40,084 bases of DNA from a virus. Where the stretch lies: IMG/VR virus record IMGVR_UViG_3300046740_000180, positions 1 to 40,084 of that record. One strand, written 5' to 3'. The position numbers were made by a program, and so were the translations under genes. This document shows positions 1-40,084 of this stretch, piece by piece (the stretch's first letter is position 1; every line of letters begins with the position of its first letter). The notes beneath the pieces were generated by a model that saw only the letters and a program-made list of their open reading frames with translations, was not told where the DNA came from and did not search any database.

Positions 1-297
1 TCGTCTACGCGGGAGAGGTTTTGCTCTACGACGGGGAGAATCCTTACGCTTTGGACACCGTTTTCCCGTTTGCCGAGTACGTCCACTACTACGTTCCGGG
101 CAAGTTTTGGGGCTTTTCGGACGTTGCTCTACTGAAATCGGCTCAGATGGTGGCCGACAAGAACATGGCGCAGGCCCTTGACGCCCAGAGAATGACTTCT
201 ATGGGCTATTTCGAGTATCCCGCCGAGGCTCTGGCCTACGCGCAGCGCGGAAACGCACCCGGGCAGGGCTTTCCGGTCCCGGTTCAGTACACGGGCC
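1..297. repeat. Left copy of the 297-bp terminal overlap
   Basis: These bases match 39788-40084 with ten substitutions (window positions 128, 131, 143, 179, 200, 231, 251, 257, 263 and 269). The first 127 bases are identical, and all ten changes are synonymous in the portal frame. This marks closure of a circular or circularly permuted genome, with two strain variants represented, and not a packaged terminal repeat. Confidence 0.9.
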
Positions 298-1094
298 GCG
301 CTAGATGGCTCACTCCTCAGGGATACAACGCCCAGCTGCACTCAATGGTGGACGAAATCAACCTCCGAGACTTTGAGCGAATGGGGGGCGTCTCCGACGT
401 GTCCACCGGGACATCTCCGAACGCTCCCACAAGCGGTGTCGAGGTGCAAGCACGGCAGAGGGCGGCGGCAACCCGTATCGGAATGCACTTGAAGCGCCTC
501 AATCGGTATCGGGGCGATCTAGCCTCCCTTGTATGGAAGGTGATGAACCAATACTACGTTGGCCCGAGAACATTCATGGTTCAGCAGCCCACCGGAGAGC
601 AAGAAGCAATCGCAGAGGATGTTTCCCAGTTGCCGCCCGGCGTAGCGGTTCGTGTCGATGCGGACTTAGACGCTCTGGAGAAAGACAAACTGATGGGACA
701 GAACCTCACCGCTGCGATACAAAGCGGGGTTCTCACGGACCCGAAGATGAGGCCGTTTCTCCCGATGTATCTGACCTCTCTGGGCCTGTCCCCGACCCTG
801 GTACGGCAGACGATTGAAACCGTCGATCAGGTTGCGGCCATGCAGGCGCAGGCTCCGCCTCCTCCGGTCGAGCCTCCAGACAAGATTCTGGTCGCCATGA
901 GCGATCTGTTGAAGGTTTCTCCCAATTCGGTGTCCTTCGAGCAGGTTCAGCAGGCATTGACTATGGCTGGCATCAATCCGGTGCAGCCCACGGACCACAA
1001 ACTAGAAATGGCTCCCACTCCGACTTCTAACAGCGAATCGACGCGGCCCGGCACGTCAAAAACGGGCAAGTCGAGCGCGGAGCCTAAAAATTGA
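1..1094 (+). CDS. Portal protein, C-terminal part (gene crosses the window junction)
   Basis: This is the 3' part of the portal gene, whose 5' part lies at the right end of the window. The portal is the dodecameric ring at the capsid vertex through which DNA is packed and ejected. The frame is open from base 3 with no start of its own, so this is not a separate gene. Joined at base 39787/1 the product is about 679 aa, close to P22-type portals. The C-terminal end carries a Pro-rich run (QAPPPPVEPPDK) followed by a Ser/Thr/Lys tail, a disordered end typical of podovirus portals. It lies between the terminase and scaffold/capsid genes. The function rests on gene order, length and general similarity, not on a single catalytic motif. 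Confidence 0.85.
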   Translation, partial: VYAGEVLLYDGENPYALDTVFPFAEYVHYYVPGKFWGFSDVALLKSAQMVADKNMAQALDAQRMTSMGYFEYPAEALAYAQRGNAPGQGFPVPVQYTGRARWLTPQGYNAQLHSMVDEINLRDFERMGGVSDVSTGTSPNAPTSGVEVQARQRAAATRIGMHLKRLNRYRGDLASLVWKVMNQYYVGPRTFMVQQPTGEQEAIAEDVSQLPPGVAVRVDADLDALEKDKLMGQNLTAAIQSGVLTDPKMRPFLPMYLTSLGLSPTLVRQTIETVDQVAAMQAQAPPPPVEPPDKILVAMSDLLKVSPNSVSFEQVQQALTMAGINPVQPTDHKLEMAPTPTSNSESTRPGTSKTGKSSAEPKN

Positions 1095-1105
1095 GGCTGA
1101 ACTAG

Positions 1106-1471
1106 GTGGCATCCACTACAACCTATCAGTCCGGTGATTCCTTCGTTATCACCAAGGAAGGCGTGAGCGACGGCACCTCAATCACGCTAGTCGGCGCTGC
1201 CCCAGGCAGAGCGCAGATGATCAAGGAAGTGTGCGTAAAGACCATTCATGCCCTGACAGTCGTGGATGTAACGGTCACCAAGAACGATACAACCACAGTG
1301 CTTGCAAAATGGGGAGCAACGTCCGACCTTCCAGTTGGCGGAGCAGTATGGAGCCTATCCGGCCCCATCTGCTGCGCTGTTAACGACAACGCGGTTGTCA
1401 CGTTCACGCTTACGGGCGCTACCGCAGCTACCGTGGCAGCGTCCGTTATGTACACACTTGTACCAGCGTAA
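1106..1471 (+). CDS. Small beta-rich head-associated protein, copy 1
   Basis: A 121-aa Thr/Val/Ala-rich protein starting with GTG 11 bases after the portal stop. It is a clear paralogue of the next gene: both share the blocks VVDV.VTKND..T.LAK.GATS.LPVGG and NDNA..T.T..G. The alternating hydrophobic/Thr pattern suggests an all-beta fold. Its place between portal and scaffold suggests a capsid decoration or minor head protein, but no family was recognised and the role is inference from position. Confidence 0.8.
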   Translation: MASTTTYQSGDSFVITKEGVSDGTSITLVGAAPGRAQMIKEVCVKTIHALTVVDVTVTKNDTTTVLAKWGATSDLPVGGAVWSLSGPICCAVNDNAVVTFTLTGATAATVAASVMYTLVPA

Positions 1472-1483
1472 GGCGGTGAATAA

Positions 1484-1846: not shown

Positions 1847-1858
1847 GGAGTGATTCGA

Positions 1859-2113
1859 CTGTCAGGAACGCTTGAAGGAACCGGCCCCAATGTCCGGGGA
1901 ACGACCGACGCTTCGGCCTCGATGCTCGGCTACACGAGCATGACGCAAAATGCGACCACCAACGCCACGACCGACTATATCGGAGACGGTGGTCCAAACC
2001 CTACGTCGTCTCCCAGAAACCCACTTGAGAACATGGTGAACACTTCCAATGACACAGATGTACTGGTTGTTCCGTCTGGCGGAACGGTCGCGGACGGTGG
2101 TCCAAATCCCTAG
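1859..2113 (+). CDS. Small unknown protein, probable CTG start
   Basis: An 84-aa polar protein rich in Thr, Asn and Gly, containing the tripeptide-like repeat DGGPNP twice (mid-protein and at the C-terminus). Two starts are possible. GTG at 1850 lies inside the SD sequence AAGGAGTGA, so it is unlikely. CTG at 1859 sits 5 bases beyond that SD and is preferred. No family was recognised. The position between the head-associated pair and the scaffold suggests a structural or assembly accessory. Confidence 0.65.
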   Translation: MSGTLEGTGPNVRGTTDASASMLGYTSMTQNATTNATTDYIGDGGPNPTSSPRNPLENMVNTSNDTDVLVVPSGGTVADGGPNP

Positions 2114-2321: not shown

Positions 2322-2324
2322 CTA

Positions 2325-3206: not shown

Positions 3207-3220
3207 GGACGTGAGTTTAG

Positions 3221-4069
3221 ATAGGTAGCGTAACCTCAGTTACCGCCGCAACTCTAATCTCGAATCTGTGGTCCGACCAGATCGAGTACGCGGCAAACGA
3301 CGTTAGAGGCGTCGTCAACTTCATTACCGATACCGGGGAGCGCTGGTTCGGTCCCGGTGGCGGAAACATTCTGTTCCCGAACGTGGGAGCGATTGCGTCG
3401 AGCGCATACGGTGCTGGCTCGACGACCCTCACGCTCACGTCGAACACGGAAGGCGTCACCACGGTCAACCCGACCGTGATCTATACCGCCGTGGAACTCT
3501 ACGAGGACGTGCTGAATACGACCATCGTGGACGCGGTGAAGGTTTACGCGCCGGTTCTCGCGGAGGGCCTGTACCAGAACATCGAGGAAACGATCCTCTC
3601 GAAGCACCAGACGACCATTACCACGGTCGGAACGTCTTCGGCTGGCTACAACTTCCTCGAAGCGGACTTCCTTACCGGACTCGCTCAGCTTCATGCGAAC
3701 GGCAAGGACAAGGTGAAGCCGGGCAGCATCTACGGCATCTACCATCCGCTCCAGTACGACAACATGATGGCGGTGTCGAACATCGTGTCGGCGGCAGTGC
3801 GTGGGGAGTCGAACGGCCCGGCCAAGACCGGCGTCATCGGCCTCTCGAACGGCTGCAATATCTTCTTCACGTCGAACGTGCAGTTGCTCACGGCGAATAT
3901 GTGTAACCTCCTGATCGCTCCGAAGTGGCTCATTCTTGCTCGCAAGAATCGCCCGAAGATCGAGATGGAGCGCACCAATCTGGCGACTCGCGTCGTTGCC
4001 TCGACCCAGTACGGCGTTGCCGTCCAGTGGTCGAACTGCGGCGTTCGCCACGTTACTCAGTCGCTCTAG
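3221..4069 (+). CDS. Major capsid protein, start codon ATA
   Basis: A 282-aa protein following the scaffold, with long Thr/Val-rich beta segments, helical stretches and a C-terminal RTNLATRVVASTQYGVAVQWSNCGVRHVTQSL typical of HK97-fold capsid subunits. The frame is closed by TAG immediately upstream, so translation must start at or after 3221, where the codon is ATA. Ahead of it lies AAGGACGTGA, nearly the full complement of the 16S rRNA 3' end, with 6 bases between. The next NTG codons (CTG 3266, GTG 3383) would remove coding-like sequence. The product is the most abundant virion protein, so an ATA start is striking. Confidence 0.85.
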   Translation: MGSVTSVTAATLISNLWSDQIEYAANDVRGVVNFITDTGERWFGPGGGNILFPNVGAIASSAYGAGSTTLTLTSNTEGVTTVNPTVIYTAVELYEDVLNTTIVDAVKVYAPVLAEGLYQNIEETILSKHQTTITTVGTSSAGYNFLEADFLTGLAQLHANGKDKVKPGSIYGIYHPLQYDNMMAVSNIVSAAVRGESNGPAKTGVIGLSNGCNIFFTSNVQLLTANMCNLLIAPKWLILARKNRPKIEMERTNLATRVVASTQYGVAVQWSNCGVRHVTQSL

Positions 4070-5528: not shown

Positions 5529-5875
5529 TGGCAATCGAGGAAAAGGAACTCCCGAACTCGAACCAATGGGAAATCAAGGCGACCGGGGCCGACATCCCCA
5601 AACTGGCTGGGATGCTCACCGAGACTGGGAACGAAGCGTACAGGGAAGCGTTCCACTCGAACGAGGGCCAGTACGTGAAGATAGCGGACCCGCAGGGGAA
5701 CCTGACCCATGTGCATCAGAGGGATGTGGAGGGTGCGTTGGCTGCGGGGTATGGGCGGGCTGGGGCGACTCCGAGGATGATAATGCCGACGGTCCCGTGG
5801 GCGCAGAAGAAGTCGGGGCCGGGGAAGCACAAGTTCCGCTACAACAAACTGACGGGCGAGATGGAGGAAGTCTGA
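5528..5875 (+). CDS. Small unknown protein within the glycosyltransferase cassette
   Basis: A 115-aa soluble protein whose ATG overlaps the previous stop (TAATG). It contains a HVHQRDVEGALAAGYGRAG segment, with a short GPGKHKFRYNKLTGEMEEV tail. No family was recognised. The tight overlaps on both sides show co-translation with the flanking glycosyltransferases. It could be a small structural protein or an acceptor/adaptor for them. Confidence 0.75.
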   Translation: MAIEEKELPNSNQWEIKATGADIPKLAGMLTETGNEAYREAFHSNEGQYVKIADPQGNLTHVHQRDVEGALAAGYGRAGATPRMIMPTVPWAQKKSGPGKHKFRYNKLTGEMEEV

Positions 5876-6549
5876 ACAAGATCGACTTGGTTCTGTGCGT
5901 TCCGATGCTTCAACGCTCCGGGCTTCACCCTGCGACCTTCTACTCTCTCTGGACGATGCGGCACGAACTCCCGGACAAAGACCACATGGTGAGCCTGTTT
6001 CCGATGGACAGGCCCCAGGCTTCGGCAAGGTCTGACGCTCTCAGGCTGGCTAGGGACATAGAGGCCGAAGCGCTCCTGTTCATCGACTCGGACATGGAGT
6101 TTCAGCCCGACCTTTACCGTCGGCTCCTGGCCGTAGATGCCGACATCGCCTGCGGGCTTTTCTGGACGAAGCGCATCCCGTCTTTCCCAACGGTAATGCG
6201 AAAGATCAAGATGGCGGACGATTCGGACTCCCTGACCCACATCATCCCCGACGGCAAGGTTCACGAAATCGACGCCTGCGGGATGGCGGCCACCCTGATT
6301 CGGAAGAACGTCATCCAGAGCGACCGATTCGAGTATCCGGCGTTCAAGCACCTTGGCTCGATTGGAGAGGACTACTTCTTCTGCCTCCACGCGAGGGACG
6401 CCGGTTTCACAATCAAGTGCGACACATCCATCAAGGTTGCTCATCGCGGGGATGTCGCCTTCAACGGCCAGCCGATCCTGACCCACCCGGACCTAAAGAC
6501 CCTCTCCTACCCGTTCGGCGGCGAGGACGGCGTACAGAACGCGGTTTGA
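5872..6549 (+). CDS. FIDSD-type glycosyltransferase, copy 1, CTG start
   Basis: A 225-aa GT-A type glycosyltransferase. ALLFIDSDMEF carries the DxD motif. ACGLFWTKRIPSFPTVM and GEDYFFCLHARDAGFTIKCDTSIKVAHRG match the two related enzymes downstream. The coding sequence can only begin near a CTG that overlaps the previous TGA as CTGA, placed 5 bases after GGAGGAAG. This mimics the common ATGA junction with C in place of A. There is no ATG, GTG or TTG at a suitable distance. It is cytoplasmic, with donor and acceptor unknown. The methyltransferase downstream overlaps by four bases. Confidence 0.83.
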   Translation: MNKIDLVLCVPMLQRSGLHPATFYSLWTMRHELPDKDHMVSLFPMDRPQASARSDALRLARDIEAEALLFIDSDMEFQPDLYRRLLAVDADIACGLFWTKRIPSFPTVMRKIKMADDSDSLTHIIPDGKVHEIDACGMAATLIRKNVIQSDRFEYPAFKHLGSIGEDYFFCLHARDAGFTIKCDTSIKVAHRGDVAFNGQPILTHPDLKTLSYPFGGEDGVQNAV

Positions 6550-7199
6550 GTCCGTCCTATTACACGATACGGAACTGGCACGAGGACAAGAAGGCCTGGA
6601 TTCCAGACACCAGAGTTTGGAAGGAACTTCGTTCCGGAGACAAAATGTGGCTTGAGTCGTTGCAGCATCCCGAGGAACTAGGCTCCCTAGTAGAACTTCT
6701 CAAAATTGCGAAAGTAAAGACGGTGCTGGAAATCGGGGCCGGACCCTGCGGAACCGCCGTCTACTTCGCTGAGGCCGTGGGGCCAGAGGGCTACGTCGTC
6801 TCGGTAGACCTCCCAGCCGACATGGGCGGCACCCCGCCACAGTACGAGCAAATGGCCAAGGCCAAGGCCGAGAACTGGGAACTGGTGCGGGGATACTCGA
6901 TTGAGCAGGGCACCGTAGAAGCCGTCAAGAAGGCCCTTGGGGGCCGCCAGGTTGGACTTTTATTCATAGACGGGGAACATACCCTGGACGCGGCACGAAG
7001 CGACTACGAGACCTACAGGCCCCTTCTAGAGAAGGACGGCATCATCGCCTTCCATGACATCACCCTACCCGAGTTGTGGCCCTTCTGGTGCGGGTTGAGG
7101 GCCAAGCGGCACCCGGTTCGGTCAATGGAGTTCATCGACAGCAAGGAGCGGATCGGGTTCGGGATCGGCGCTCTAGTGGGGCGAGATGAAGGTTTTTGA
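6546..7199 (+). CDS. SAM-dependent methyltransferase
   Basis: A 217-aa class I methyltransferase. VLEIGAGPCGTAVYFAE is the SAM-binding motif I. VVSVDLP is the acidic end of strand 2. LLFIDGEHTLDAARSDYETYRPLLEKDGIIAFHDI matches the Methyltransf_24/cephalosporin-hydroxylase-like group, often found beside sugar-modifying enzymes. The TTG start overlaps the previous stop (TTGA). Among glycosyltransferases it probably O-methylates a sugar or a glycosylated product. The true substrate is unknown. Confidence 0.85.
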   Translation: MSPSYYTIRNWHEDKKAWIPDTRVWKELRSGDKMWLESLQHPEELGSLVELLKIAKVKTVLEIGAGPCGTAVYFAEAVGPEGYVVSVDLPADMGGTPPQYEQMAKAKAENWELVRGYSIEQGTVEAVKKALGGRQVGLLFIDGEHTLDAARSDYETYRPLLEKDGIIAFHDITLPELWPFWCGLRAKRHPVRSMEFIDSKERIGFGIGALVGRDEGF

Positions 7200-7950
7200 T
7201 TGCATCCTGTTCTTCAACGAGTTCGACCTATTGGACTTACGGCTTCGGACCCTGGATTCGGTTGTAGATACCTTCGTCATCGTGGAGGCCCCGTGGACGT
7301 TCAGCGGAAAGCCGAAACTACTCTACTTCAAAGAGTTCCATGATGGGTACGGTCCCTGGCTTCACAAGATACGCCACATTCAGTTGAGCGGGGCCATTGA
7401 CGCTCAGATTCCCTGGGAACGCGAGTGGGCGAGCCGGAACGCCATGGTCGAGGGGCTTTGGGACGCAGAGGCAGACGATCTGGTGTTTCAGTCTGACACA
7501 GACGAAATCTGGAGGCCGGAGAAGCGGGACGAGTACCCCAACGATCCCATCGTCACCTACGAGCAGAGCCACAACTTCTACAATCTAAATACGACCCGGC
7601 TCCCTGAACACAAGTGGCTAGGAACTAGGCGGTGCAAGTTCGGGTCGTGGCCTGGAGGGCAGAAGCTCAGGGATTCCGTAGGGCGTAGGATCGAGAACGG
7701 GGGCTGGCACTTCTCCTACCTTGGAGACGAATACCAAGCCTCGGCCAAACTCCAGGCGTTCTCCCACACCGAGTACAGCGGTCCCGAGTACAGCGATCCC
7801 AAGAAGATTCGGCAACACATGGACGCTGGGACCGACCTGATTACTCCGCTCCAAGCCTTCTACATCCCGGTTCCAGTTGATGCGACATTCCCGAAGCCAG
7901 TCTTGGAGAACCCGGATAGATGGAAGAAGTATATCAAGCCCGTAGCCTGA
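7186..7950 (+). CDS. Glycosyltransferase family 17 protein
   Basis: A 254-aa protein whose N-terminus, FDCILFFNEFDLLDLRLRTL, is followed by VVDTFVIVEAPWTFSGKPK. This closely fits family GT17, whose eukaryotic member adds bisecting GlcNAc to N-glycans. FQSDTDEIWRPE is the expected acidic motif. It starts with ATG overlapping the methyltransferase end by 14 bases. GT17 homologues are common in phages, but their substrates are mostly unknown. Here it belongs to a five-enzyme glycosyltransferase set in the virion operon, so a virion protein is a possible acceptor (inference). Confidence 0.88.
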   Translation: MKVFDCILFFNEFDLLDLRLRTLDSVVDTFVIVEAPWTFSGKPKLLYFKEFHDGYGPWLHKIRHIQLSGAIDAQIPWEREWASRNAMVEGLWDAEADDLVFQSDTDEIWRPEKRDEYPNDPIVTYEQSHNFYNLNTTRLPEHKWLGTRRCKFGSWPGGQKLRDSVGRRIENGGWHFSYLGDEYQASAKLQAFSHTEYSGPEYSDPKKIRQHMDAGTDLITPLQAFYIPVPVDATFPKPVLENPDRWKKYIKPVA

Positions 7951-8579
7951 CCCTCATCGCTCTACCCTACGTATCGAAAGACGGCTTCGTTGGTCCCTGC
8001 GTCGAGTCTCTTCTGAACGCCATCGCAACGAAAAGCCTGGGTTCTGTGAGTTTCATGTGCATCAAGGACCGGACCCAGGTTTCAGCTAGAAATCTAGCAG
8101 CGCATAAGGCCCTACAGATCGGTGCCGACTACCTTTGGTTCATCGACTCGGACCAGGACTTCTCGGTGGATATGCTGGCTAGATTGAAGCGAGTAGACGC
8201 AGACGTAGCGTGTGCGGATATGTGGTCTAGGTCATGGCCCTCGTTTCGGATCGTGTTCGGGAAGGAGCCGGCTTGGGAAGGCGGAAAGGCCCGCTATCTC
8301 CCAGTTGGGGACGAAATAGCTAATAAGGGTTCGATAGAGAACATTGAATACTGCGGCATGGGATGCACCCTTATTAAGACTTCGATGCTAGCCAAGCTGA
8401 AGGAAGCCGAGCCGAACCAGCCATGGTTTTGGGCTGCGGACCACGGAGAGGACGCCACCTTCTGCTTCAAGGTTCTGGAGGCCGGCGGGACCGTGAAGTG
8501 CGATTTCGGCCTCAAGTCTGGACATTGGGGAAACATCAGGATGATGGGACAGGACTACACACGGAGGCCGGTTGAGTAA
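7920..8579 (+). CDS. FIDSD-type glycosyltransferase, copy 2
   Basis: A 219-aa paralogue of the enzymes at 5872 and 8572. It has LTLIALPYVSKDGFVGPCVESL at the N-terminus, YLWFIDSDQDF with the DxD motif, ADMWSRSWPSFRIV, and GEDATFCFKVLEAGGTVKCDFGLKSGHWG near the end. ATG at 7920 is chosen because the N-terminus then aligns with copy 3. An in-frame CTG at 7947, overlapping the previous stop as CTGA, is the alternative. Copies 2 and 3 are adjacent, indicating local duplication. Confidence 0.85.
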   Translation: MEEVYQARSLTLIALPYVSKDGFVGPCVESLLNAIATKSLGSVSFMCIKDRTQVSARNLAAHKALQIGADYLWFIDSDQDFSVDMLARLKRVDADVACADMWSRSWPSFRIVFGKEPAWEGGKARYLPVGDEIANKGSIENIEYCGMGCTLIKTSMLAKLKEAEPNQPWFWAADHGEDATFCFKVLEAGGTVKCDFGLKSGHWGNIRMMGQDYTRRPVE

Positions 8580-9294
8580 CGTCGAGCAGGTTCCGAAGGG
8601 TGTCACCAGCATCGCCCTTCCGTTCGTCTCCAAGCAGGGATTCACCGGAGCTACAACCCAATCTCTAATCCTTGGGATTCTGGCGGGCGGAATGAAGATG
8701 AGCAAGTTCCTGTTCCTTGGGGACCACTCCCAGGTGCAGGCCAGAAACGTAGCCTGCCAGGATGCCATCGACATCGGGTCTGAGTGGATTTGGTTTATCG
8801 ACTCGGACGCAGACTTCCCGGTAGATGCTCTAGCCAGACTCAAGGCGTGCGATTCCGACATCGCCTGTACTGATATGTGGAGCCGAAATATTCCCTCCTT
8901 CCGTACAGTGATGAGGCTGGAAGTCATCGACGGGGACAGAGCCGGGGTGCCGGTGCCTGGGAACCCGACCGGAGTAGAGGACATCGACCTGTGCGGGATG
9001 CACTGTACGCTGATCAAGGTTTCGCTTCTAAAGAAGATCAAGGACGCGTTCCCTGAAAGCCCCTGGTTCTGGAACGGGAAGAACGGCGAGGATGCGGAGT
9101 TCTGCTTCAAGGCTAAAGACCTTGGGGCAAAGATCAAGTGTGACTTCTCGATCATGTCGGGCCACTGGGGGGTCGCTAGGATGGCCGGGCAGGACTGGAG
9201 CCGAGACGCAAAGAATCAGCCGATGCATGTAGCCAATATGGAAATGATGAAGAGAATGGGAGTCAAAAACCTAAAAGAAGAAGGAGTGGTCTAG
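8572..9294 (+). CDS. FIDSD-type glycosyltransferase, copy 3
   Basis: A 240-aa paralogue of the preceding gene, sharing IALPFVSKQGFTG, QARNVA, WIWFIDSDADF, DMWSRNIPSFRTVM and GEDAEFCFKAKDLGAKIKCDFSIMSGHWG. The TTG start lies in the 8-base overlap TTGAGTAA with copy 2. It ends the glycosyltransferase cassette; the next gene is a structural-type beta protein. Three divergent copies suggest different donors, acceptors or sequential sugar additions, which the sequence cannot resolve. Confidence 0.86.
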   Translation: MSNVEQVPKGVTSIALPFVSKQGFTGATTQSLILGILAGGMKMSKFLFLGDHSQVQARNVACQDAIDIGSEWIWFIDSDADFPVDALARLKACDSDIACTDMWSRNIPSFRTVMRLEVIDGDRAGVPVPGNPTGVEDIDLCGMHCTLIKVSLLKKIKDAFPESPWFWNGKNGEDAEFCFKAKDLGAKIKCDFSIMSGHWGVARMAGQDWSRDAKNQPMHVANMEMMKRMGVKNLKEEGVV

Positions 9295-9570
9295 TTGGCG
9301 TTTTCGTACACGATCACCGGAACCCGAGACTTGCAGGGTGCGAAGTTGATTCACGGCACCTGGGACGCAACCGCTGCGACGAGCGGAACGATCACCTTTG
9401 GCGGAACTCGGGGCGGAAACCAGGGAACGCCCTACACCCTGATTGACTCAACTGTTGTCTCCAGTGTCTCGTCCACCACCATGACGGCATCGAAGATGAC
9501 CGCAACGGGAACGCTGGTTCTCACCTGTGTCTCTGGCGATGCGGGCTACTGGTCCGTCACCGTCCTGTAA
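9295..9570 (+). CDS. Small beta structural protein, copy 1 (TTG start)
   Basis: A 91-aa Thr/Gly-rich protein beginning MAFSYTITGTRDLQGAKLIHGTWDATAA and containing the block TYTLIDSTVVSSVSSTTMTASKM (positions approximate). The next gene repeats the same layout. TTG directly follows the preceding TAG, after AAGGAGTGG. It is probably a virion or decoration protein with an all-beta fold. No family was recognised. Confidence 0.78.
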   Translation: MAFSYTITGTRDLQGAKLIHGTWDATAATSGTITFGGTRGGNQGTPYTLIDSTVVSSVSSTTMTASKMTATGTLVLTCVSGDAGYWSVTVL

Positions 9571-9582: not shown

Positions 9583-10077
9583 ATAGCGTTCACCTATACT
9601 GAAACCGGCACCACGAATCTCGGTAACTGCCGGTTGGTCTACGGGACTTGGAGTGCCGCGAGCGTCACCGGGGGCGTCATTCCGATCTCGGTCCCGAACA
9701 CCTTCTTCCCCACGGCCCTCACCACCACGACCGCAAGCAACACCACCCTCACCACTTCCGGCTCGTATACGACCTCGGCTATCGCGGTAGGAGACTACAT
9801 CACCGGAACCGGGATTATCGACGGAACCTATGTCGCGTCGATTGAGTCGGCTACTTCGCTGACTATGAGCCAGGCGGCCACGGACTCGACGGCCACGAGC
9901 CGGACGTTCTCTCGCGCAGGCCGAAGCCCGTACTCGATCCTCACTGCCAAGGTTGTCTCCAGCACTTCTTCCACGACGATGACCGCGTGCCGTATTAGGT
10001 CGCTCTCCACGATGCAGCACCTAGACATGACCTGCGTCACCGACGACTTCGGCTACTGGTCCATCTACTGCTACTAG
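9583..10077 (+). CDS. Small beta structural protein, copy 2, ATA start
   Basis: A 164-aa paralogue of the preceding protein with a Thr/Ser-rich insertion. Both share AF.YT.TGT at the N-terminus, GTW.AA, SILTAKVVSS.SSTTMTA (copy 2 wording) and D.GYWS near the end. The frame is closed by TAA at 9568, and the paralogue alignment places Met exactly at an ATA codon, behind AAGGGGG with 7 bases between. The next TTG is 51 bases inside the shared domain. This is the best independent support for ATA initiation in this phage. The function is unknown, presumably virion. Confidence 0.82.
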   Translation: MAFTYTETGTTNLGNCRLVYGTWSAASVTGGVIPISVPNTFFPTALTTTTASNTTLTTSGSYTTSAIAVGDYITGTGIIDGTYVASIESATSLTMSQAATDSTATSRTFSRAGRSPYSILTAKVVSSTSSTTMTACRIRSLSTMQHLDMTCVTDDFGYWSIYCY

Positions 10078-10085: not shown

Positions 10086-10289
10086 TTGCCACGCAAGAAC
10101 AGCAAGGCATCGGCTCGGTGGCTTGTGAAGCCGCTCACGTGGAAGGACGTGTTTGGTAAATCGCAGTCGGCGTCACGCAACCGGGCGGTGCCGGTACGAC
10201 CATCTTCATCTACGATAACGCCTCCTCCGCCAACGGAATCGCCTACACCTTCGCGGAGATCGCAGCGGCGTTCCCAGCCGACGACGTAG
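10086..10289 (+). CDS. Short reading frame MPRKNSKASARWLVKPLTW; own gene or 5' part of the next
   Basis: TTG follows AGGGGGTTAG, a good SD. The first 25 codons (basic, then WLVKPLTWKDVFGK) look coding. After about 10160 the frame becomes an out-of-frame shadow of the next gene (Pro/Ser/Arg-rich). There are two readings. It may be a separate 67-aa product overlapping its neighbour by 130 bases. Or the two are one protein joined by a -1 shift, programmed or due to an indel, near GGTAAATC. The fused product would begin MPRKNSKASARW and run into IAVGVTQPGG. Confidence 0.4.
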   Translation: MPRKNSKASARWLVKPLTWKDVFGKSQSASRNRAVPVRPSSSTITPPPPTESPTPSRRSQRRSQPTT

Positions 10290-11452
10290 ACAACGGCACC
10301 AACCGAAAGTCCTACCGCAACAAGGTCAACATCCAGGTCGGGGAGACTGGTTCTGGTGGCTCGCTAACCTCGATTGTAGACACCGACAAGACTCTGCTAT
10401 TCGACAACTCTAGGACGCTTGTGTTCAAGTCCACCCAGACTACATCCTGGGCTTGCACTCTCGGGACCAAGGTTGGCACCGGGAACAGGGCTAGCGGGAC
10501 GGCCGGGTGCGACATCACAGCAGGAACCGCCCTCACCTTTCGCGGAAACACGAAACTCTACGGATGCACGGTTCGGCAGACAGCGAACTCCGGTATCTCA
10601 ATCACTCCAGCGACAACCGGAACCTGCGAGATAATCAACTGTCTATTCGACTCCAAGGCTACAAGTTTCTCGGCTCCACTGGCTTTTGGCAACTCAGCCA
10701 CGTTCATCGACAATATCTACAACTTGGACGTAGCCTGCTCGGTTAGTGGGCAGACCATCATAACCAACTTCTTCGCAAACAACGCGGAGAGGATAACTGT
10801 AGCGGCGTCCGGGTCGCCTACGTCGTTCTTCCTAATCTCGGCATCGGGATTCGCAATCAAGGACGTTTCCCTGTTCGGGACTCCGACGGCTGGCGACTTC
10901 GCTTGGCAGACCGGAATTTCAGGTCCATCGACTCTGGTTAGGCCAGTGTGGTCTGGAAATGCGTCTAAGTTTGGACCGTTATCGGCACCGACTTCAAGTA
11001 TGCTCACAATTGGAAGGCAGTGTTCTGAATACTGGATGTTAGATGTGAAGATTGAGGATGGGTCTGGAACCGCTATCAGCGGGATACCAGTAAGGCTTAC
11101 CGATACAGTTGGGACTGTCCAAGTCAACACCACCTCAAACTCATCTGGAGAAATATCGTTTGGGTCAGGGCTAACAGCCGAAGCTGTGATCGTTATGGAT
11201 CACTACGCTGGAAACGATTCGGCTGCCGACACAGTATACAGGCAGCGCCACCGATCCCCGTTCCTGCTTGAAGTCAACCTGCCCACGATGGCCGGATACA
11301 ACAACAACTACCAGTCCAAAAGGATGACCTTCAACTGGCCGGGATACGAGTCGGTAACAACCTCGGCTGGAACGTTCGAGGACGTGAATATAGTCATCTC
11401 TCTTAGCGACCCTCCAGGCACCCCCACCATCTGGACCGAAGCATCACTCTAA
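10160..11452 (+). CDS. Beta-helix virion protein, apparent ATC start
   Basis: A 430-aa protein. Residues 1-250 have the short repeated strands of a right-handed beta-helix (LTFRGNTKLYGCTV, TCEIINCLF). Residues 280-370 contain a carboxypeptidase-regulatory-like Ig segment (DVKIEDGSGTAISGIPVRLTDTVGTVQVNTTSNSSGEISF). The frame is closed by TAA at 10157 and then continuously coding from ATC. The SD AAGGACGTG is the same 9-mer as at the capsid gene, 8 bases before ATC. The next NTG codons lie about 235-260 bases inside. The alternative is a frameshifted fusion with the short frame upstream. It is likely an adhesin-like virion component. Confidence 0.78.
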   Translation: MAVGVTQPGGAGTTIFIYDNASSANGIAYTFAEIAAAFPADDVDNGTNRKSYRNKVNIQVGETGSGGSLTSIVDTDKTLLFDNSRTLVFKSTQTTSWACTLGTKVGTGNRASGTAGCDITAGTALTFRGNTKLYGCTVRQTANSGISITPATTGTCEIINCLFDSKATSFSAPLAFGNSATFIDNIYNLDVACSVSGQTIITNFFANNAERITVAASGSPTSFFLISASGFAIKDVSLFGTPTAGDFAWQTGISGPSTLVRPVWSGNASKFGPLSAPTSSMLTIGRQCSEYWMLDVKIEDGSGTAISGIPVRLTDTVGTVQVNTTSNSSGEISFGSGLTAEAVIVMDHYAGNDSAADTVYRQRHRSPFLLEVNLPTMAGYNNNYQSKRMTFNWPGYESVTTSAGTFEDVNIVISLSDPPGTPTIWTEASL

Positions 11453-12462: not shown

Positions 12463-15400
12463 TTGTCCCGTAGATTCAACGGGTCCACGGACCTTATCTC
12501 CTGCGCTTCTCCGGCTGTTCTGGACAACCTGACGGGCGGCCTCACGATTGGGTGCTGGATTTACGCATCGAACTTCGGGGCCAACTCCAAGGGTTATATC
12601 GTTGGTAAGGGAACCTCAGACTCCACCAACACTACGACGTGGCGCATCGCCAATGCTACGTCTGGAGGGGCCGACAAGTACGCCCTACGGTTCGAGGTAA
12701 TGTACTCGGACGGATTTGGGTTGTTCCGTGAGACTGCCAATGCCTCGTTCACGCTAAATACGTGGTACTACGTCATCGTCACCTGGGGAGGCTCCAACGC
12801 CAGGACAGACATACATATGTACTCGGAGGGTGTCGAGTGTACCTACGGGGCTGGTGGAGAGCATAACGGTGGTACTACCCACGATGATTCGGCTGGCAAC
12901 TGGGTAATCGGAGAGAGGCCAGCACAGCACAACAGAACGTGGTCTGGCGATCTCTATGGGCTTAGGGCGTGGGCGTCGGTAATATCCAGCACCAACTTCG
13001 CTTCCATGAGACTGGACGGAACCGTGGGTACTCCGGTCGGCTGGTGGGCTATGAACGGGACCGCCGACCCTGAACCAGACACTTCTGGTAACGGAAACGA
13101 TGGAGTCCTAACTGGGACCACCGGCTCAAGTAACCCCCCAGCGATTGGCACGGCCCATACAAGCCAATCGATCCCAGGCACGGCCAAGATTCATGCGACC
13201 CTGACGAAGACGCTTACCGGGGTGGCCAACATCTTCCCGTCTGGCCGTCACCAGCGCCCCATCACGGGCGTAGCAGCCATAACTCCTGGGCTTGTGAACG
13301 CTACGTGGACCGCGCTACCGGCTCCAACCCAGGTGCCGTATGCCAGCCTTAGCGGAACCTACGACCCTCGCGGTTGGGACAAACTGGAGTACGACCCAAC
13401 TAGCGGCAAATTCTGGACGTGGGACGGCTATCTTGCGAGTGACAGGGCCTACACGATCTACGGAAACGCCCTGTGGCAGTACGACCAGGGAAGCAACAAA
13501 CTCATCCTCTACAAGATCATCAACTGGCAATGGACAGCCCCCACCTACGTCACGTCTCCAACTCCAGAGAACGCGGCTGACCCTACCCCATACGACCGAC
13601 ATTCGTACCAGGGAATGTGCGTGGTTCCCTCTCAGAACAAGTTGTATCTATGGGGCGGAGCGAACACTACCAAGGCGGACAACTGGAAGGCCGAGTTCTG
13701 GAGTTACGACCTAGCGGCCACACCGGGGACGGTCAATTCGTGGACCCTGATTTCAACGTCCAGCGACAGCACGCTAACCAATTCCACGACGCCTACGCTG
13801 CCCCCATACGCATCGTTCGAGCAGTGTATGGTGAACGACACGCAGAACGGGCAACTAATCGTATTCAGCGCCAGGAACGACCACGGGTTTGTGCAGGAGG
13901 GCCGGGACACCTTCACCTATAACCTGGCCGCTGGGACTTGGGCGAAGCGTGCCAACGCAAGCGGTGACCCCGGAGCGAGACTTGGGCACTCGATGTGCTG
14001 GGACTCGTCTAGGAATTGCGTCTGGATGTTCGGTGGTAGCGGCGCTTCCCCGTATCCCCAGTTGGGGAACGAACTCTGGAAGTACGTTCCGGCAACGAAC
14101 ACCTGGAGCCAGCCTACTACTACTGGAGGCCCGCCAAGGACTAGGCGTTTCGGAAACTGGGCCTACGATTCCCAGAACGATGTCTGCGTGCTGTTCGGTG
14201 GGAGCGACGTTTACAGGAACGCTGGGGATACTGCGGACCTGTCAGACAGCAGTTTCGTAGGGCTGAACGATACGTGGGTATTCCGCCCAGGCTCTCTTGT
14301 GTGGCAGCAGTTGTCCCCGTCCGCTAGCCCAACAGCATCCGAGTCGTTCGGCAACAAACTGGCCTACGATTCGGTCAACAACTACTTCGTCTACAACGCT
14401 ATGGGGACAGAGGGTAAGTTCTACCTGTTCCGATATGGTTCCACGCCACATGCTAGCCAGACGATTACTGGCAAGGCCAAGATCAAGGCTCACATCCCCC
14501 AGACCATCACGGGCGTTGCCAACATAACCCCGAACACGGCCAAGCAGACTCAGACAATCACTGGGAAGGCCAACATAGCCGCAGGCCCGCTTTCGGTTCA
14601 GATCACTGTAAGCGAGACACTTCCGCTGAGCGTCCCTGGCTTGGCTCGGTCCCTGTCTCCGGTGAGTGTTGGAATCCCGATTCCTGAGTCAGCAAATATC
14701 TCCAGCGTAAGCCAGCTTGGGATGACCGGTCCCACAGCCTACCAATTCCGAATCCTTGGAAACTACGCTAGCGGCAAAGCCAAGTGGGTGTTGTGTGACT
14801 TCCTAGATTCCGTGTCGGCTGGCGGTAGCAGTACGGCGGCAACGCTGACTAGCGGCACCGGGGCGCTCGGCTCCAACATGGCTACGGACGGGGCCACAAT
14901 CTCCGTGGACACCGGAGCGGCGGTGTTCTCGGTCGTCAAGGCCCCGTTCAAGATGTTCGATGCGGTGACCGTTGGCGGGACTTCTGTGGTGACCACTGGG
15001 GGAACCGGGGTAACGTTGCTGGTGGGTGGTATCGCCTACTCGTCTGCCAACGACAATAGCGCCACGACTACGGTAGAAGAGAACGGCCCGGTCCGAGTCT
15101 GCGTCTTGTCCAAGGGTGCGTTGAAAAACGGCGGCGGCACCCGGCTCATGGACTACACGGTGAGGCTGCACTTCTACAAGGGTAAGTCTTACTGCCGGGC
15201 CTTCGTTACACTGCGGAACGCCAAGGAGTCATCTACTCAGGCTCCAGTTGTCTTTGACTCGGTGGAAGTGTCTCTCAAGGTTGGCACTTCAGCCTCGACT
15301 TTCGTAACCAAGACCTCGCTGGACGTTTCTCCGCTTTCCATCCCGCTGTCTGCTGCGGAGACGGCCTACGCTTATCAGGCGTACTCGACAAAGTATCAGG

Positions 15401-17595
15401 CCACATCCTCTCAGAACGATTATGCTACTGCACCGATGAATACTGCCGTGAAGGGCGTGGCCGTCGTGAAGGGCGCTACGACTTACCACGCTCAGAGCGG
15501 AAACACTTCTGACTACGTTGAGTGGGCTGCCCTGGAGGATTCTGGCGGCAAGGGCGTAACGATGGTCATGCCGTACATGGCCCAGTATTGGCCTGCTGGA
15601 TTCGAGGTGTCCCAGGACGGCTCATGCTCGGTACAGTTATTCTCTAAGAGGAACAGTAAGACCGGGATCAAGTTCGCATTCCTGGCTCACGAGACTCGGG
15701 AACTCTTCTTCGACTTCCACGCTACTACTCCGGCCAGCAGAAGCACCGCTCTCTACGAGGCCCAGTATTCTCTCCAGGGTAGGGCCAGCGTAACGCAGTA
15801 CGCATCTACTGGTGCCATCTTCGGAGAGACTCAACTGGTATCTCAGGCAGAGCAAGATACGTGGTACACGACCCTGACTGCGGTGTCTGGCCCACCAGGC
15901 GGAGTACCCAACGTGGTCCCTGGGATTATCCGGTGGTGGTCTTGGAATCAGGGGTCCGGCAACAACCAGACAGACTTCGCCGTAATCGACTTCATTGACT
16001 GGATAAGGACCGGGTACGGCGGATACTGGTGGCAGGGATTCAAGAACACTTGGTTCAAGAGCCACAACGCAGTGCCGTGGTCCGACGACTGGGACATGTA
16101 CCTTGACCAGATCAATGCCGGGGACGAGACTGGCGGCACCAACCTTGGCACATTCAACTCCTACCCATTCCAGCAGGCGCACCCCCACTTCACAAGCCTG
16201 ATGCTCGGATACTACATGACTGGGCAGATGGAGTTCTACGATGCTGTGTATGAGTACGGAGAATACGAAATATCTCTAGGGGACGGCATCTCCCCGCTCC
16301 TGTTCTACAACCCCACTGGGTCATTCGACAACGTAGGCTCTTCATTTAGCCTTGAGACGGTAGGGGACATGCGTATCTGGTCCCGCTATCTCAGGAACTT
16401 CGCTGCCATATGGGACTTCACCAGAAATCCGCGATACTACTCCATGATGTCCCTCATGGTGAACAGCATGCTGAACTCCACGGAAGTCCCAGGCTCCGTG
16501 GCTCCTGCTGGCCGAAATCGTCGCAGGGGATATATGTGGATGTCTCACGGAGCCTTTGCGCTTCCACGAACGGTATCGGACTTCTTTACTTCTCAGATTC
16601 ACTTCGAAGCGGTCTGGTACGCTAAGATGATGCTGGCCGAACAGGGAGCAACAGCCACCGTCCTAGCAATCGAGGACTATCTGCTCGGCCTGGGCGACTT
16701 CATGTACTACGAGATGTTCTTCGATCTTACTGGTAGTGGTGGGGCTATGGGTTATCTCTACACCTACTACTTGGATGTAGCTAACAACTCAACAAATAAC
16801 CCGCACTGGCCGCCACTCGACTATCTGAGAATGATTGCCGGTGGGCGTTGCTGGACGTTCATGTGGCAGATGACCGGAGATACGAAGTACCTGGATCGAG
16901 GGCGGCTCCTGCTGGTTGGGGATGCCAAGGGGCAGACGGACGCTGGAGTGTCGTTTAGAACTCCGTCCGACTTCCCACAGCAGGCGTTCATGTACAACGA
17001 CCTGTACCGGCCCGAGACTGGGTGGATCAACGCTAGCCCAGTAAGCGCGTTCCCGATTGGGCTAAACAAGTACAGAGTGTTCGTAACTCTACCGTCTACG
17101 GCCAACGGGGTAAGGGTGAGGGCGGCTCCTGCTGGGTCAAACATAGTTGACTGGCTTGGATTCAGCCAGGACTCAAGAACCTACATCTACGGCTCAACGG
17201 GCTTTACTCCCTGGTTCGCTGGAGTCCATTTCACAGACCCCGACGCAACCCAGGTCAAGGCCAACGGCTTCTTCGACCTAACCGGAACCAACATAGTGAC
17301 TCAATACGGTTCCTTCATGGTGAAGTACACGACCGGAACAACCCCAGTCTCGACCCCTAGAACGATCCAGGGCAAGGCGAAGATTCTAGCCCACGTTCCG
17401 CAAACCATCACCGGCAAGAGCAGAATCCTCAAGCACGTTCCGCAGACTATTACCGGGGTGGCGTCGATCCTGCCTCCGAGTACCACTAGGGCGGTCTACG
17501 ACATTACCGGGGTAGCGAAGATAAGCACCGGCCCTGGCCCCTCGACGTGGATCCACGGAACGACCCCATACGGACAATGGAAGAAGGGTAGATAG
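12463..17595 (+). CDS. Giant modular tail fibre with lectin, kelch and polysaccharide-lyase-like domains
   Basis: A 1710-aa protein with a TTG start. Residues 1-230 match LamG/concanavalin-like lectins (FNGSTD, LTIGCWIYAS, WYYVIVTWGG, YGLRAWASV). About 275-660 is a kelch propeller (LYLWGGAN, CVWMFGGSG, CVLFGGSD). About 710-1100 resembles the RIFT-barrel and beta-sandwich of YetA/PL26 exo-rhamnogalacturonan lyases (SVGIPIP, KAKWVLCDF). About 1140-1560 is a Trp/Tyr-rich helical part like their alpha/alpha toroid. Ten short QTITGKAKI-type repeats sit at domain borders (near 235-270, 660-705 and 1630-1690). It probably binds and perhaps degrades a surface polysaccharide. Enzyme activity is inferred; catalytic residues were not identified. 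Confidence 0.88.
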   Translation: MSRRFNGSTDLISCASPAVLDNLTGGLTIGCWIYASNFGANSKGYIVGKGTSDSTNTTTWRIANATSGGADKYALRFEVMYSDGFGLFRETANASFTLNTWYYVIVTWGGSNARTDIHMYSEGVECTYGAGGEHNGGTTHDDSAGNWVIGERPAQHNRTWSGDLYGLRAWASVISSTNFASMRLDGTVGTPVGWWAMNGTADPEPDTSGNGNDGVLTGTTGSSNPPAIGTAHTSQSIPGTAKIHATLTKTLTGVANIFPSGRHQRPITGVAAITPGLVNATWTALPAPTQVPYASLSGTYDPRGWDKLEYDPTSGKFWTWDGYLASDRAYTIYGNALWQYDQGSNKLILYKIINWQWTAPTYVTSPTPENAADPTPYDRHSYQGMCVVPSQNKLYLWGGANTTKADNWKAEFWSYDLAATPGTVNSWTLISTSSDSTLTNSTTPTLPPYASFEQCMVNDTQNGQLIVFSARNDHGFVQEGRDTFTYNLAAGTWAKRANASGDPGARLGHSMCWDSSRNCVWMFGGSGASPYPQLGNELWKYVPATNTWSQPTTTGGPPRTRRFGNWAYDSQNDVCVLFGGSDVYRNAGDTADLSDSSFVGLNDTWVFRPGSLVWQQLSPSASPTASESFGNKLAYDSVNNYFVYNAMGTEGKFYLFRYGSTPHASQTITGKAKIKAHIPQTITGVANITPNTAKQTQTITGKANIAAGPLSVQITVSETLPLSVPGLARSLSPVSVGIPIPESANISSVSQLGMTGPTAYQFRILGNYASGKAKWVLCDFLDSVSAGGSSTAATLTSGTGALGSNMATDGATISVDTGAAVFSVVKAPFKMFDAVTVGGTSVVTTGGTGVTLLVGGIAYSSANDNSATTTVEENGPVRVCVLSKGALKNGGGTRLMDYTVRLHFYKGKSYCRAFVTLRNAKESSTQAPVVFDSVEVSLKVGTSASTFVTKTSLDVSPLSIPLSAAETAYAYQAYSTKYQATSSQNDYATAPMNTAVKGVAVVKGATTYHAQSGNTSDYVEWAALEDSGGKGVTMVMPYMAQYWPAGFEVSQDGSCSVQLFSKRNSKTGIKFAFLAHETRELFFDFHATTPASRSTALYEAQYSLQGRASVTQYASTGAIFGETQLVSQAEQDTWYTTLTAVSGPPGGVPNVVPGIIRWWSWNQGSGNNQTDFAVIDFIDWIRTGYGGYWWQGFKNTWFKSHNAVPWSDDWDMYLDQINAGDETGGTNLGTFNSYPFQQAHPHFTSLMLGYYMTGQMEFYDAVYEYGEYEISLGDGISPLLFYNPTGSFDNVGSSFSLETVGDMRIWSRYLRNFAAIWDFTRNPRYYSMMSLMVNSMLNSTEVPGSVAPAGRNRRRGYMWMSHGAFALPRTVSDFFTSQIHFEAVWYAKMMLAEQGATATVLAIEDYLLGLGDFMYYEMFFDLTGSGGAMGYLYTYYLDVANNSTNNPHWPPLDYLRMIAGGRCWTFMWQMTGDTKYLDRGRLLLVGDAKGQTDAGVSFRTPSDFPQQAFMYNDLYRPETGWINASPVSAFPIGLNKYRVFVTLPSTANGVRVRAAPAGSNIVDWLGFSQDSRTYIYGSTGFTPWFAGVHFTDPDATQVKANGFFDLTGTNIVTQYGSFMVKYTTGTTPVSTPRTIQGKAKILAHVPQTITGKSRILKHVPQTITGVASILPPSTTRAVYDITGVAKISTGPGPSTWIHGTTPYGQWKKGR

Positions 17596-26106: not shown

Positions 26107-26271
26107 CTGGAGGCAATTCTAGCAAACATCGGGGTTGGAGTTATCGCTGCCGCATTCGGAGTCTGGGCCGGAGTCCAAGTCCACTCATCGCAGATCGAGG
26201 ACATCAAGCACCGCCTGGACCGTATCGAGTCCAAGGTTGATCGGCTGATCGAGCGCAAGATTGAAACCTAG
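26107..26271 (+). CDS. Membrane protein with C-terminal coiled coil, probable lysis accessory
   Basis: A 54-aa protein (from CTG) with one hydrophobic span (ILANIGVGVIAAAFGVWAGV) followed by a charged amphipathic helix (IEDIKHRLDRIESKVDRLIERKIET). This resembles holin-partner or spanin-like proteins, in reversed order to XhlA. The CTG lies 4 bases after GGGGGGAGA. An in-frame GTG at 26083 has no SD and overlaps the previous gene, so CTG is preferred. It overlaps the transglycosylase start by 11 bases. Confidence 0.7.
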   Translation: MEAILANIGVGVIAAAFGVWAGVQVHSSQIEDIKHRLDRIESKVDRLIERKIET

Positions 26272-36855: not shown

Positions 36856-37330
36856 ACTTCCAGTTGGGGAGTCTGGGGTTGAGCGGGGCCGTCTCACCGA
36901 GGATAGGCAGGACGCCCTCGCGGAGTGGTACGGGAAGTCGGAGGCCGAGAAGAAGGCTAGCGGGCTTCCCGATCCTGGGGCCGTGGCTCAGTTGCTTGGT
37001 ATCTCGGCGGCTACGGTTCGCAGGGCCAAGACGGACAAGCGGGTCATGGGGAAGATTCGGGAGCAGTTGGATCAGCAGCTTCTTTACGACGTGGTTGAGA
37101 TTCGGCCTGTTATCAAGGCTCTGGCGATGGACCCTGAGGGTAAGACGGACGTTCGGCTGAAGGCTGCACGGACCATCGAGGAGTTGGCTGGTAACTTGAA
37201 GAAGGGGCCTGGAGTAGAGATCAACACGACGAACGTTCACCCGACTGTGTGGCAGGACATGAGCGACGACCAGGTACTTGAGGCCGTCGAAAGGATTGCC
37301 AAGGAGCGCGGTTTCCGTAAGCCAGAATGA
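36842..37330 (+). CDS. terS: Small terminase subunit
   Basis: A 162-aa protein directly upstream of the large terminase. The N-terminal half has an HTH (DPGAVAQLLGISAATVRRAKTDKRVMGKIREQL) for recognising the packaging site. The second half (VVEIRPVIKALAMDPEGKTDVRLKAARTIEELAGNL) is helical, as in the oligomerisation region. It starts at GTG overlapping the previous gene by 14 bases with a weak SD. Family similarity is by architecture and position. Composition returns to the C-rich pattern of the structural genes here. Confidence 0.77.
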   Translation: MKVTKLPVGESGVERGRLTEDRQDALAEWYGKSEAEKKASGLPDPGAVAQLLGISAATVRRAKTDKRVMGKIREQLDQQLLYDVVEIRPVIKALAMDPEGKTDVRLKAARTIEELAGNLKKGPGVEINTTNVHPTVWQDMSDDQVLEAVERIAKERGFRKPE

Positions 37331-38813
37331 TGACCTAGCCCTACTCCAAGAGTACGAACGGAGGACGAAGCAACGCCCTTGGCTCGCCTACCGTTGTATC
37401 CCAGCCGTGAAGAAGTTCCACGACTCGAAGGACTTGATCCGTGTGTTGGCCGGGCCGAACCGTGGCGGCAAGACGACAGCGGGTTCATACGAACTCTTGT
37501 GCTTCGCAACCGGCTACAACCCAATTCGCAAGGAGAAGTACGAGGTACCGAACATTGTATGGGCTATTTCACTCGACTATGGAAATCTTGGCCATGTGAT
37601 GAGGGAGAAGGTGATGTCTCTCTTGCCACCGGGCTACAAGTTCTACAAGCAGGAGAATATCGTCACCCTTCCGAACAAGTCGGAGATTCACTTCAAGTCT
37701 GCCGATGCGGGAAGAGAGAAGTTTCAGGGCGCAGGGATCATGGCCGCTTGGTTCGACGAGGAGCCGAAGGGCCTAGCGGGGTCGGAAATCTTCTCGGAAG
37801 TCTATGCTCGACGGAAACCGGGCTGGCCACTGAAGATATTTATGACCTTCACCCCTCTTCAGGGGTTGTCGTGGGCCTACCGGGATTTGTGGAATGAGCA
37901 GACCCGGCGCTACCCGAGTATCAGTACATTCTCTTTCCAGTTGGATGACTGTTCGACATCCCTTGGAGGATTTCTTTCAGATGACGAAATCGAAACGATC
38001 AAAGCCGGGTACACGGAGTGGGAAAGGGAAGCCCGTGTCTACGGACGCTGGGGTCAAGTCTCAGGGAGGCCGTACTTCTCGCCCAAGCAAATCGAAGAAG
38101 CCCGCCAAAGGTCGGACAAGCCGGTCTACGGGTCGGTAAAGAAGAATGCGATTTCCGGGTATTCCTTCACCACCGACGATGCAGGGAACGTGGCCCAATT
38201 CCGTCCTCCTAGGTCCGGGGGAGACTATATCGTTGGGGTTGACGTTGGGGGTGGGGGAGGACGCGATTACACCGTCGCTACCGTCTGGGATCGACGTGAT
38301 CTGGCTGAAGTCGCGGTCTGGCGCTCTAACACTCACGATCCGGAACAATTCGCCCGAGAGCATTTGGTGCCCCTTGCCTCCTACTACAACTATGCACTCG
38401 TTGTACCAGAAACCAACGGGGAACACGGAGGAACCTGCATCTCGGTCCTGAAGAACTTCGCCTACCCCAATATCTATATGTACCAGGAGTGGAACAAGGT
38501 AAGAAACGTCTACATGGATAATTGGGGCTGGAGAACCACGGTTGGAACTAGGGGCCGGATTTTCGACTCCATCGCGCAAGCTCTCCGAGAGGGGAAGTTC
38601 ACCCCTTCCTCCCTCTTGTGTGACGAGCTATCGATGATTTCCGTAGACGAAGAGAACCGGCCCGACCATCTTGACGGATGCCACGACGACCACGTGATTG
38701 CGACTGGTATTGCTCTCACGGTCAACGCTGAGAATCCGCCTCCGAAGAAGATTCCGTACGACAAGGTGACCTATGCGTCTCCTCATGCAGAACATGAGTG
38801 GATGGGCGTTTGA
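37317..38813 (+). CDS. terL: Large terminase subunit, probable GTA start
   Basis: A 498-aa packaging motor. Walker A is GPNRGGKTT (about 46-54). Walker B with the catalytic Glu is AAWFDEEP (D147/E148). The RuvC-like nuclease has GVDVGGGGGRDYT (D309), VVPETNGEHGG and GCHDDHV (about 456-461). It translocates DNA through the portal and cuts concatemers. The coding frame has AAGGAG 10 bases before a GTA, giving MSQNDDLALLQEY. In-frame TTG codons at 37296 and 37278 exist but have no well-placed SD. GTA is preferred by SD spacing, with moderate certainty. Confidence 0.9.
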   Translation, partial: VSQNDDLALLQEYERRTKQRPWLAYRCIPAVKKFHDSKDLIRVLAGPNRGGKTTAGSYELLCFATGYNPIRKEKYEVPNIVWAISLDYGNLGHVMREKVMSLLPPGYKFYKQENIVTLPNKSEIHFKSADAGREKFQGAGIMAAWFDEEPKGLAGSEIFSEVYARRKPGWPLKIFMTFTPLQGLSWAYRDLWNEQTRRYPSISTFSFQLDDCSTSLGGFLSDDEIETIKAGYTEWEREARVYGRWGQVSGRPYFSPKQIEEARQRSDKPVYGSVKKNAISGYSFTTDDAGNVAQFRPPRSGGDYIVGVDVGGGGGRDYTVATVWDRRDLAEVAVWRSNTHDPEQFAREHLVPLASYYNYALVVPETNGEHGGTCISVLKNFAYPNIYMYQEWNKVRNVYMDNWGWRTTVGTRGRIFDSIAQALREGKFTPSSLLCDELSMISVDEENRPDHLDGCHDDHVIATGIALTVNAENPPPKKIPYDKVTYASPHAEHEWMGV

Positions 38814-38841
38814 AACCCGGACTAGAGAGGGGTGAGTCGGC

Positions 38842-40084
38842 TTAGACGAGCCTGTTAACGACACAGAGCAGGAAGGCTACAAGATCGCCAAGGCGCTTGC
38901 CGAGACGGCTCGCGGGCCTGCGAATAAATACACGGCCAACTACGAGAACGACCGAGACTATCTGCTCGGCGTTAACCATTGGCCCACACCACGCACGTAC
39001 ACGCAAATGGCCCCCGACGCTTGGAAGGCCAAGACTGTTAGAAACTGGCTTTTCCGCACCGTTGACCACAAACGCGCCGTTGTCCTAGACGCCACTCCGT
39101 CCATCCACGTAGAACCTTTGTCTGATGCCGTGCCCCTTGAACTGAGAGCCAAAATCAGTCAAGTGACCGAACATGAGTTGAATCGACTTCGATGGGACGA
39201 CCTGGCCGAGGCAGCATTTTGGGACGGGGCTGTGTGCGGCAAGGGAATCACGATGTGCCGGACTGAACGAGACAAGTTCACCGGAGAACACAAGATTCGG
39301 CTCGACCGCGTTGACCCCAGAGACTTCTTTCCCGACCCCTCCGCTGACTCTATTCACAACTCCCGATACGTTGTCTGGGAGCCAGACCTCGACCTATCGG
39401 TTATCAAGGACATTTTCCCCGAGAAGGGTGACAAGGTTCACGCAAACAAGACCCAGCCAATCAACATGCCTGGGTTCAAGCGTGCCCGCAGCGACGACGA
39501 GATCATTTACGCCCCCGGGCAGGAAATCGCGCTCGGAGATGGCAAACTCAAGGATCGAAAGGCCACCGTAACCTTCGTTTGGATCAAGGACGACTCGGTT
39601 TCTGAGGACACCGAGCTTGTTGTGAACCCGAACAAGACGGACGTTGCCGAGTGCCAGGACTGCGGGTCCATGTCGCAAACAAGCCCGTGCCCTAATTGCG
39701 GCTCCGAGAACATGGCGCAGACCCAACTTCCCTCCGACGTGACCCAAAACCAGGTTTTCACTCGTCAGTACCCGTTTGGGCGGCTCATCGTCTACGCGGG
39801 AGAGGTTTTGCTCTACGACGGGGAGAATCCTTACGCTTTGGACACCGTTTTCCCGTTTGCCGAGTACGTCCACTACTACGTTCCGGGCAAGTTTTGGGGC
39901 TTTTCGGACGTTGCGCTCCTGAAATCGGCCCAGATGGTGGCCGACAAGAACATGGCGCAGGCCCTCGACGCCCAGAGAATGACTTCGATGGGCTATTTCG
40001 AGTATCCCGCCGAGGCTTTGGCCTACGCGCAGCGCGGTAACGCCCCCGGACAGGGTTTTCCGGTCCCGGTTCAGTACACGGGCC
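38842..40084 (+). CDS. Portal protein, N-terminal part, start codon TTA
   Basis: The first 414 codons of the portal, continuing at base 1 onward (39788 equals base 1). NRDYLLGVNHWP-like ENDRDYLLGVNHWP, WKAKTVRNWLFRTVDHKRAVVLDATPSIHVEPL and LDRVDPRDFFPDP are typical of P22-type portals. A zinc knuckle (CQDCG...CPNCG, about residues 271-284) is inserted in the wing region, an odd addition. The frame is closed by TGA at 38833 and has no ATG, GTG or TTG before deep coding sequence. TTA lies 6 bases after GAGGGGTGA, giving MDEPVNDTEQEGYK. Confidence 0.86.
39788..40084. repeat. Right copy of the 297-bp terminal overlap
   Basis: Corresponds to bases 1-297. Identical for the first 127 bases, then ten synonymous differences in 170 bases. 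Represents a second haplotype of the same portal segment. Confidence 0.9.

Follow-up and report, generated by a model that had tools for sequence, protein, structure and literature searches.

Near-cognate start codons were previously known in single, mostly regulated genes. Initiation at such codons is normally repressed by IF3, and third-base variants of ATG and GTG serve as starts in infC (AUU or AUC) and sigR (GTC) (PMC5472188). In Staphylococcus aureus, infC, ccpN, citZ (AUA) and cvfC1 (AUU) combine an AUH codon with a long, strong and properly spaced Shine-Dalgarno sequence (SD), and AUA or AUU starts with an extended SD yield approximately 10-30% of the output of AUG (PMC13009471). In Escherichia coli, CUG yields 0.86% of the output of AUG (PMC11497404). 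Among prokaryotes, only 3 of 61,358 ancestral AUG starts have changed to CUG or AUU, and at GUG and UUG starts the weaker codon is compensated by a stronger SD (PMC5622118). A search of the literature for phages with AUA or AUU starts found nothing relevant. A study of reinitiation at non-canonical codons (PMC4648390) was set aside as not applicable, because it concerns eukaryotic ribosomes.

The window analysed here, the whole 40,084-base record of an uncultured virus, resembles these systems in several respects. Its AUH starts follow long, strong and properly spaced SDs, as in S. aureus; there, however, a few genes across the whole genome are involved and their output is reduced (PMC13009471), whereas in the window at least three or four of about 34 genes are involved, including that of the probable capsid protein. 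The portal gene may use GTC, as sigR does, but infC and sigR are regulatory genes repressed by IF3 (PMC5472188), whereas the genes of the window are structural. The pairing of weaker codons with stronger SDs recalls prokaryotic GUG and UUG starts. Given the rarity of non-canonical changes across prokaryotes, several in the 40 kb of one small genome, and thus in one lineage, are unusual (PMC5622118).

The phage is a distant P22/SU10-like podovirus from an uncultured clade. Family models identify the portal (PHROG 156), the terminase (PHROG 2) and an SU10 adaptor (PF24175, 7e-17); a match to P22_portal (PF16510, 1.6e-5) lies below the curated cut-off of that model. As in P22-like and SU10-like podoviruses, terminase, portal, capsid and adaptor genes are grouped in one module, and its portal and adaptor are similar to the P22/SU10 families. 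The clade is, however, distant from these, and most of its members use ATG, GTG or TTG at the genes considered here. No close relative was found among named phages: neither the capsid protein nor the protein encoded at 12463 had a match there, and the first 25 kb had none at the DNA level. The conserved genes used for the analysis of starts are open under table 11.

The ends of the window carry a 297-base repeat (1-297 and 39788-40084, 96.6% identity) that lies inside the portal gene, and a second contig, L002, spans the end junction without mismatch. The genome is therefore circular or permuted, with a length of about 39.8 kb. All ten differences between the end repeats are synonymous in the portal gene, and a second strain appears to be represented at one contig end. 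Several other features were observed. Genes resembling those for glycosyltransferases and methyltransferases, three of which match PHROG 1574, form a run within the virion module (5566-9294). Positions 12463-17595 encode a protein of 1710 residues with Kelch/beta-propeller matches and no relative in the viral collections searched. Repeats of 31-32 bases lie near the starts of small leftward genes between 29182 and 30610 (29182/30166 and 30376/30579), so that neighbouring early genes have a common start region.

The original prediction listed eight unusual start codons, all of which are present at the positions it gave. Those that could be judged most strictly belong to the following genes, listed with one paralogue (SD energies in kcal/mol):

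3221..4069, plus strand: probable major capsid protein gene, ATA start, SD AAGGACGTGA, -10.4
9295..9570, plus strand: paralogue with TTG start, which pins the start at 9583, SD -15.5
9583..10077, plus strand: gene with ATA start by paralogue alignment, SD TAAGGGGGA, -10.2
10160..11452, plus strand: gene with ATC start, coding-forced, SD GGAAGGACGUGU, -10.3
38836..40084, continuing over the circular junction into 1-1094, plus strand: portal gene, start at GTC 38836 or TTA 38842, SD AGAGAGGGGTGA

The product of 3221-4069 is probably the major capsid protein, judging from gene order, length and conservation. It matches no family model and has no relatives in the prokaryote genomes searched, but a protein search retrieved 15 uncultured contigs with 41-48% identity. 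Its frame contains no ATG, GTG or TTG until codon 55, and residues 5, 9 and 17 are invariant across the family, which places the start at the extreme 5' end of the frame. A coding test that takes no account of start codons likewise forces the start there. ATA 3221 aligns with the TTG, GTG or ATG starts of the 15 relatives. In two of these (L004 and L013), the number of codons from the TTG start to the conserved stretch is the same as from ATA 3221, so the ATA stands exactly at their TTG position.

An in-frame TAG (3218-3220) lies directly 5' of this ATA; in the window, the preceding gene ends at a different stop. Of 17 non-redundant family members (L003-L017, L034 and L064 surveyed), 13 have such a stop (TAG or TAA) adjoining the capsid gene start. 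This adjacency would have a chance of about 1e-14 if members were independent, but they are kin.

The other two starts are fixed by similar means. Residue 1 (TTG) of the 9295 paralogue aligns by BLASTP with ATA 9583. ATC 10160 aligns with the ATG of L009, L010 and L004, and its product begins IAVGVTQPGG, compared with MAVGVDQAGG in L009 and MAAGV in L004. A TTG-started reading frame with a good SD (10086-10289) overlaps the 10160 gene; it looks coding over the first 25 codons only. Where this frame would lie, L005, L007 and L008 have a stop directly 5' of the ATG of the next gene.

For the portal gene, the first ATG, GTG or TTG is codon 58, and homology begins at about codon 9, so that some non-canonical start is needed. 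The SD energy is -15.3 kcal/mol for GTC 38836 and -13.7 kcal/mol for TTA 38842, and the start region is identical in L002. The original prediction of TTA 38842 thus holds as to a non-canonical start, while the specific codon is unproven, since GTC 38836 fits equally well.

The remaining four listed sites have strong SDs and are less constrained:

1859..2113, plus strand: probable CTG start, SD -11.6, spacing 7
5872..6549, plus strand: probable CTG start, sharing bases with the upstream stop, SD -9.3, spacing 4, alternative TTG 5887
26107..26271, plus strand: probable CTG start, SD -10.2, with an in-frame GTG at 26083 that lacks an SD (-0.1)
37317..38813, plus strand: terminase large subunit, possible GTA start, SD -10.5, with in-frame TTG at 37278 and 37296

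For the 1859 gene, the alternative GTG 1850 lies inside the SD (SD -4.2, spacing -1), and the CTG site is identical in L002. At all four sites the proposed codon has good SD spacing, but an in-frame GTG or TTG is available, and the unusual start is not forced.

Two tests that take no account of start codon or SD, and that agreed with each other, compared the window with its relatives, to which further contigs had been added through portal and terminase alignments. In the coding test, a long coding stretch precedes the first canonical start in 3 of 34 window genes and in none of 331 genes of relatives (Fisher p = 7e-4), where the cut was chosen after the window had been seen and p values are indicative. 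The terminase of one relative (G006, with a CTG-type start) falls just under this cut (9.3 vs 10). None of 122 genes in the controls (T7, Arthrobacter phage Jasmine and Rhizobium phage RHph_N2) was flagged. In the homology test, which uses the median alignment onset (8 flags), no canonical start precedes the conserved region in 3 of 6 window genes and 5 of 263 genes of relatives, three of the five being near-copies of one gene (Fisher p = 3e-4, from rounded, de-duplicated counts). The earliest alignment onset was rejected as the criterion, since it was too lenient and gave 112 flags.

Taken gene by gene, the capsid, 10160 and portal genes have conserved coding regions with no canonical start at the 5' end. 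Homologues or a paralogue fix the start at a near-cognate codon for 3221, 9583 and 10160, independently of both start codon and SD; the portal start is not fixed. All three pinned starts are ATH codons (ATA, ATC or ATT), which make up 4.4% of internal codons, a coincidence with a chance of about 8e-5. The middle T that had been described as a constant is indeed kept at pinned starts other than ATG, GTG and TTG. The description of relaxed starts as genome-wide was overstated, as most genes begin with ATG, GTG or TTG.

Compensation of poor start codons by strong SD pairing, also proposed originally, was borne out. Measured against the standard anti-SD of the 16S tail, which may differ from that of the host, SD duplexes at the four forced sites range from -10.2 to -15.3 kcal/mol (median -10.35), and random 22-mers of the window have a median of -4.4. 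ATG sites have a median of -6.85 kcal/mol, weaker than the forced sites (p = 0.017) in a small sample with few genes and hand-picked canonical sites. TTG sites, at -9.5, are also stronger than ATG sites. In the relatives the difference has the same direction (TTG -9.4 vs ATG -7.7) and is not significant (p = 0.16). Aligned spacing at the forced sites is 7-10 (4 for GTC 38836), suited to the codon.

Relatives mostly have ordinary starts, with isolated odd ones that follow strong SDs. For the adaptor gene, the start is ATC in G002 (SD -10.2) and ATA in L014 (SD -14.1), and in both an in-frame ATG five codons downstream has only a poor, distant SD; the start is GTG in G003 and ATG in G001. A small gene has a CTG start in L017, L047 and L048 and GTG in G006, and probable CTG starts also occur at the terminase genes of G006 and the L064-L066 lineage. 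The occurrence of ordinary codons in relatives had been named as evidence against the claim. The outcome of this check is mixed: TTG, GTG or ATG does stand at the same positions, which confirms the position of the starts and shows that the odd codons were derived in the lineage of the window, where odd starts are densest. The sporadic ATA, ATC and CTG starts of the relatives imply that the tendency is a family trait, which most likely acts through the kind of host infected. These sporadic starts also make low initiation stringency in the host plausible.

The reading that probably accounts best for these observations is SD-driven near-cognate initiation by the ordinary initiator tRNA in a host with low start-codon stringency. 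The ordinary host initiator tRNA would read the near-cognate codon in the P site by pairing with its middle base and one of its outer bases; strong, well-spaced SD pairing would hold the 30S subunit, offsetting the poor codon. At the IF3 step, the host probably proofreads start codons less strictly than E. coli does, because a capsid gene started with AUA would be costly under E. coli-like stringency, where CUG yields less than 1%. In such a lax host, loss of the third-base G (NTG to NTN) would be cheap, and these codons could drift in. From the sequence, we infer that proteins are initiated with fMet at the near-cognate codons. A stronger version, in which the host lineage no longer needs the third-base G and NTN with a strong SD suffices for the capsid gene, is more doubtful and can be put forward only tentatively; the start sites of the phage family would then carry the trace of this relaxation.

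Host stringency could instead be ordinary, the odd codons having been kept to lower expression or having recently become fixed in a single strain despite a slight cost. Known near-cognate starts do reduce output, with infC and sigR as models, and relatives have ordinary codons at the same sites. A benefit of less capsid protein is, however, hard to see, and the strong SDs suggest compensation rather than reduction. Several independent cases in one genome, with single ones in relatives, point to general tolerance. Ordinary stringency is an unlikely explanation.

The original prediction had also raised a phage-timed change late in infection, affecting initiator tRNA, IF3 or the ribosome, such that odd codons work for virion genes only. 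All pinned or forced odd starts do lie in rightward virion genes. However, the leftward genes number about 10-15 and have no homologues in the phage family of the window, so that the absence of odd starts among them says little; at a rate of 4 in 34, finding none among ten genes has a chance of about 0.3. Adjacent virion genes use ATG, GTG and TTG normally. No phage tRNA was found, nor any translation-related family among the scanned proteins, many small reading frames matching no family, and a phage-made switch is thus left without a visible basis. The proposal is very improbable.

Error in sequence or assembly, or a mixed population at the odd start sites, has an equally low probability. The three pinned starts do come from one metagenome assembly with a second strain at its ends, because L002 stops short of the capsid gene start, at 2979; L002 is 100% identical to the window and may be the same population rather than an independent isolate. 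Errors would nevertheless not hit three starts, make each of them an ATH codon and leave the strong, spaced SDs intact. Moreover, every strain difference at the contig ends is synonymous, and L002 agrees exactly at the portal start and at 1859.

Production of the virion proteins by programmed frameshifting, with translation beginning upstream in a different frame, such as at a GTG inside the SD, is the least probable explanation and was rejected: other-frame GTGs do lie just upstream of the portal, capsid and 10160 starts, and the 10086 frame overlaps 10160, but the shifts required differ (+1, +1, -1), 9583 has no start of this kind, the GTGs lie inside SDs without spacing of their own, and relatives carry ordinary codons at the aligned start. 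Reinitiation after the in-frame stop adjoining the capsid and 10160 starts was likewise dismissed as a general explanation, as no gene ends there.

Near-cognate initiation in a permissive host would have consequences for both annotation and biology. Gene finders that accept only ATG, GTG and TTG would remove 54 residues from the capsid protein, 87 from the 10160 product and 57 from the portal protein. If the reading is true, near-cognate starts in core virion genes would be able to support high expression, and the presence of several odd virion starts in one phage genome would point to a host with different start-codon proofreading.
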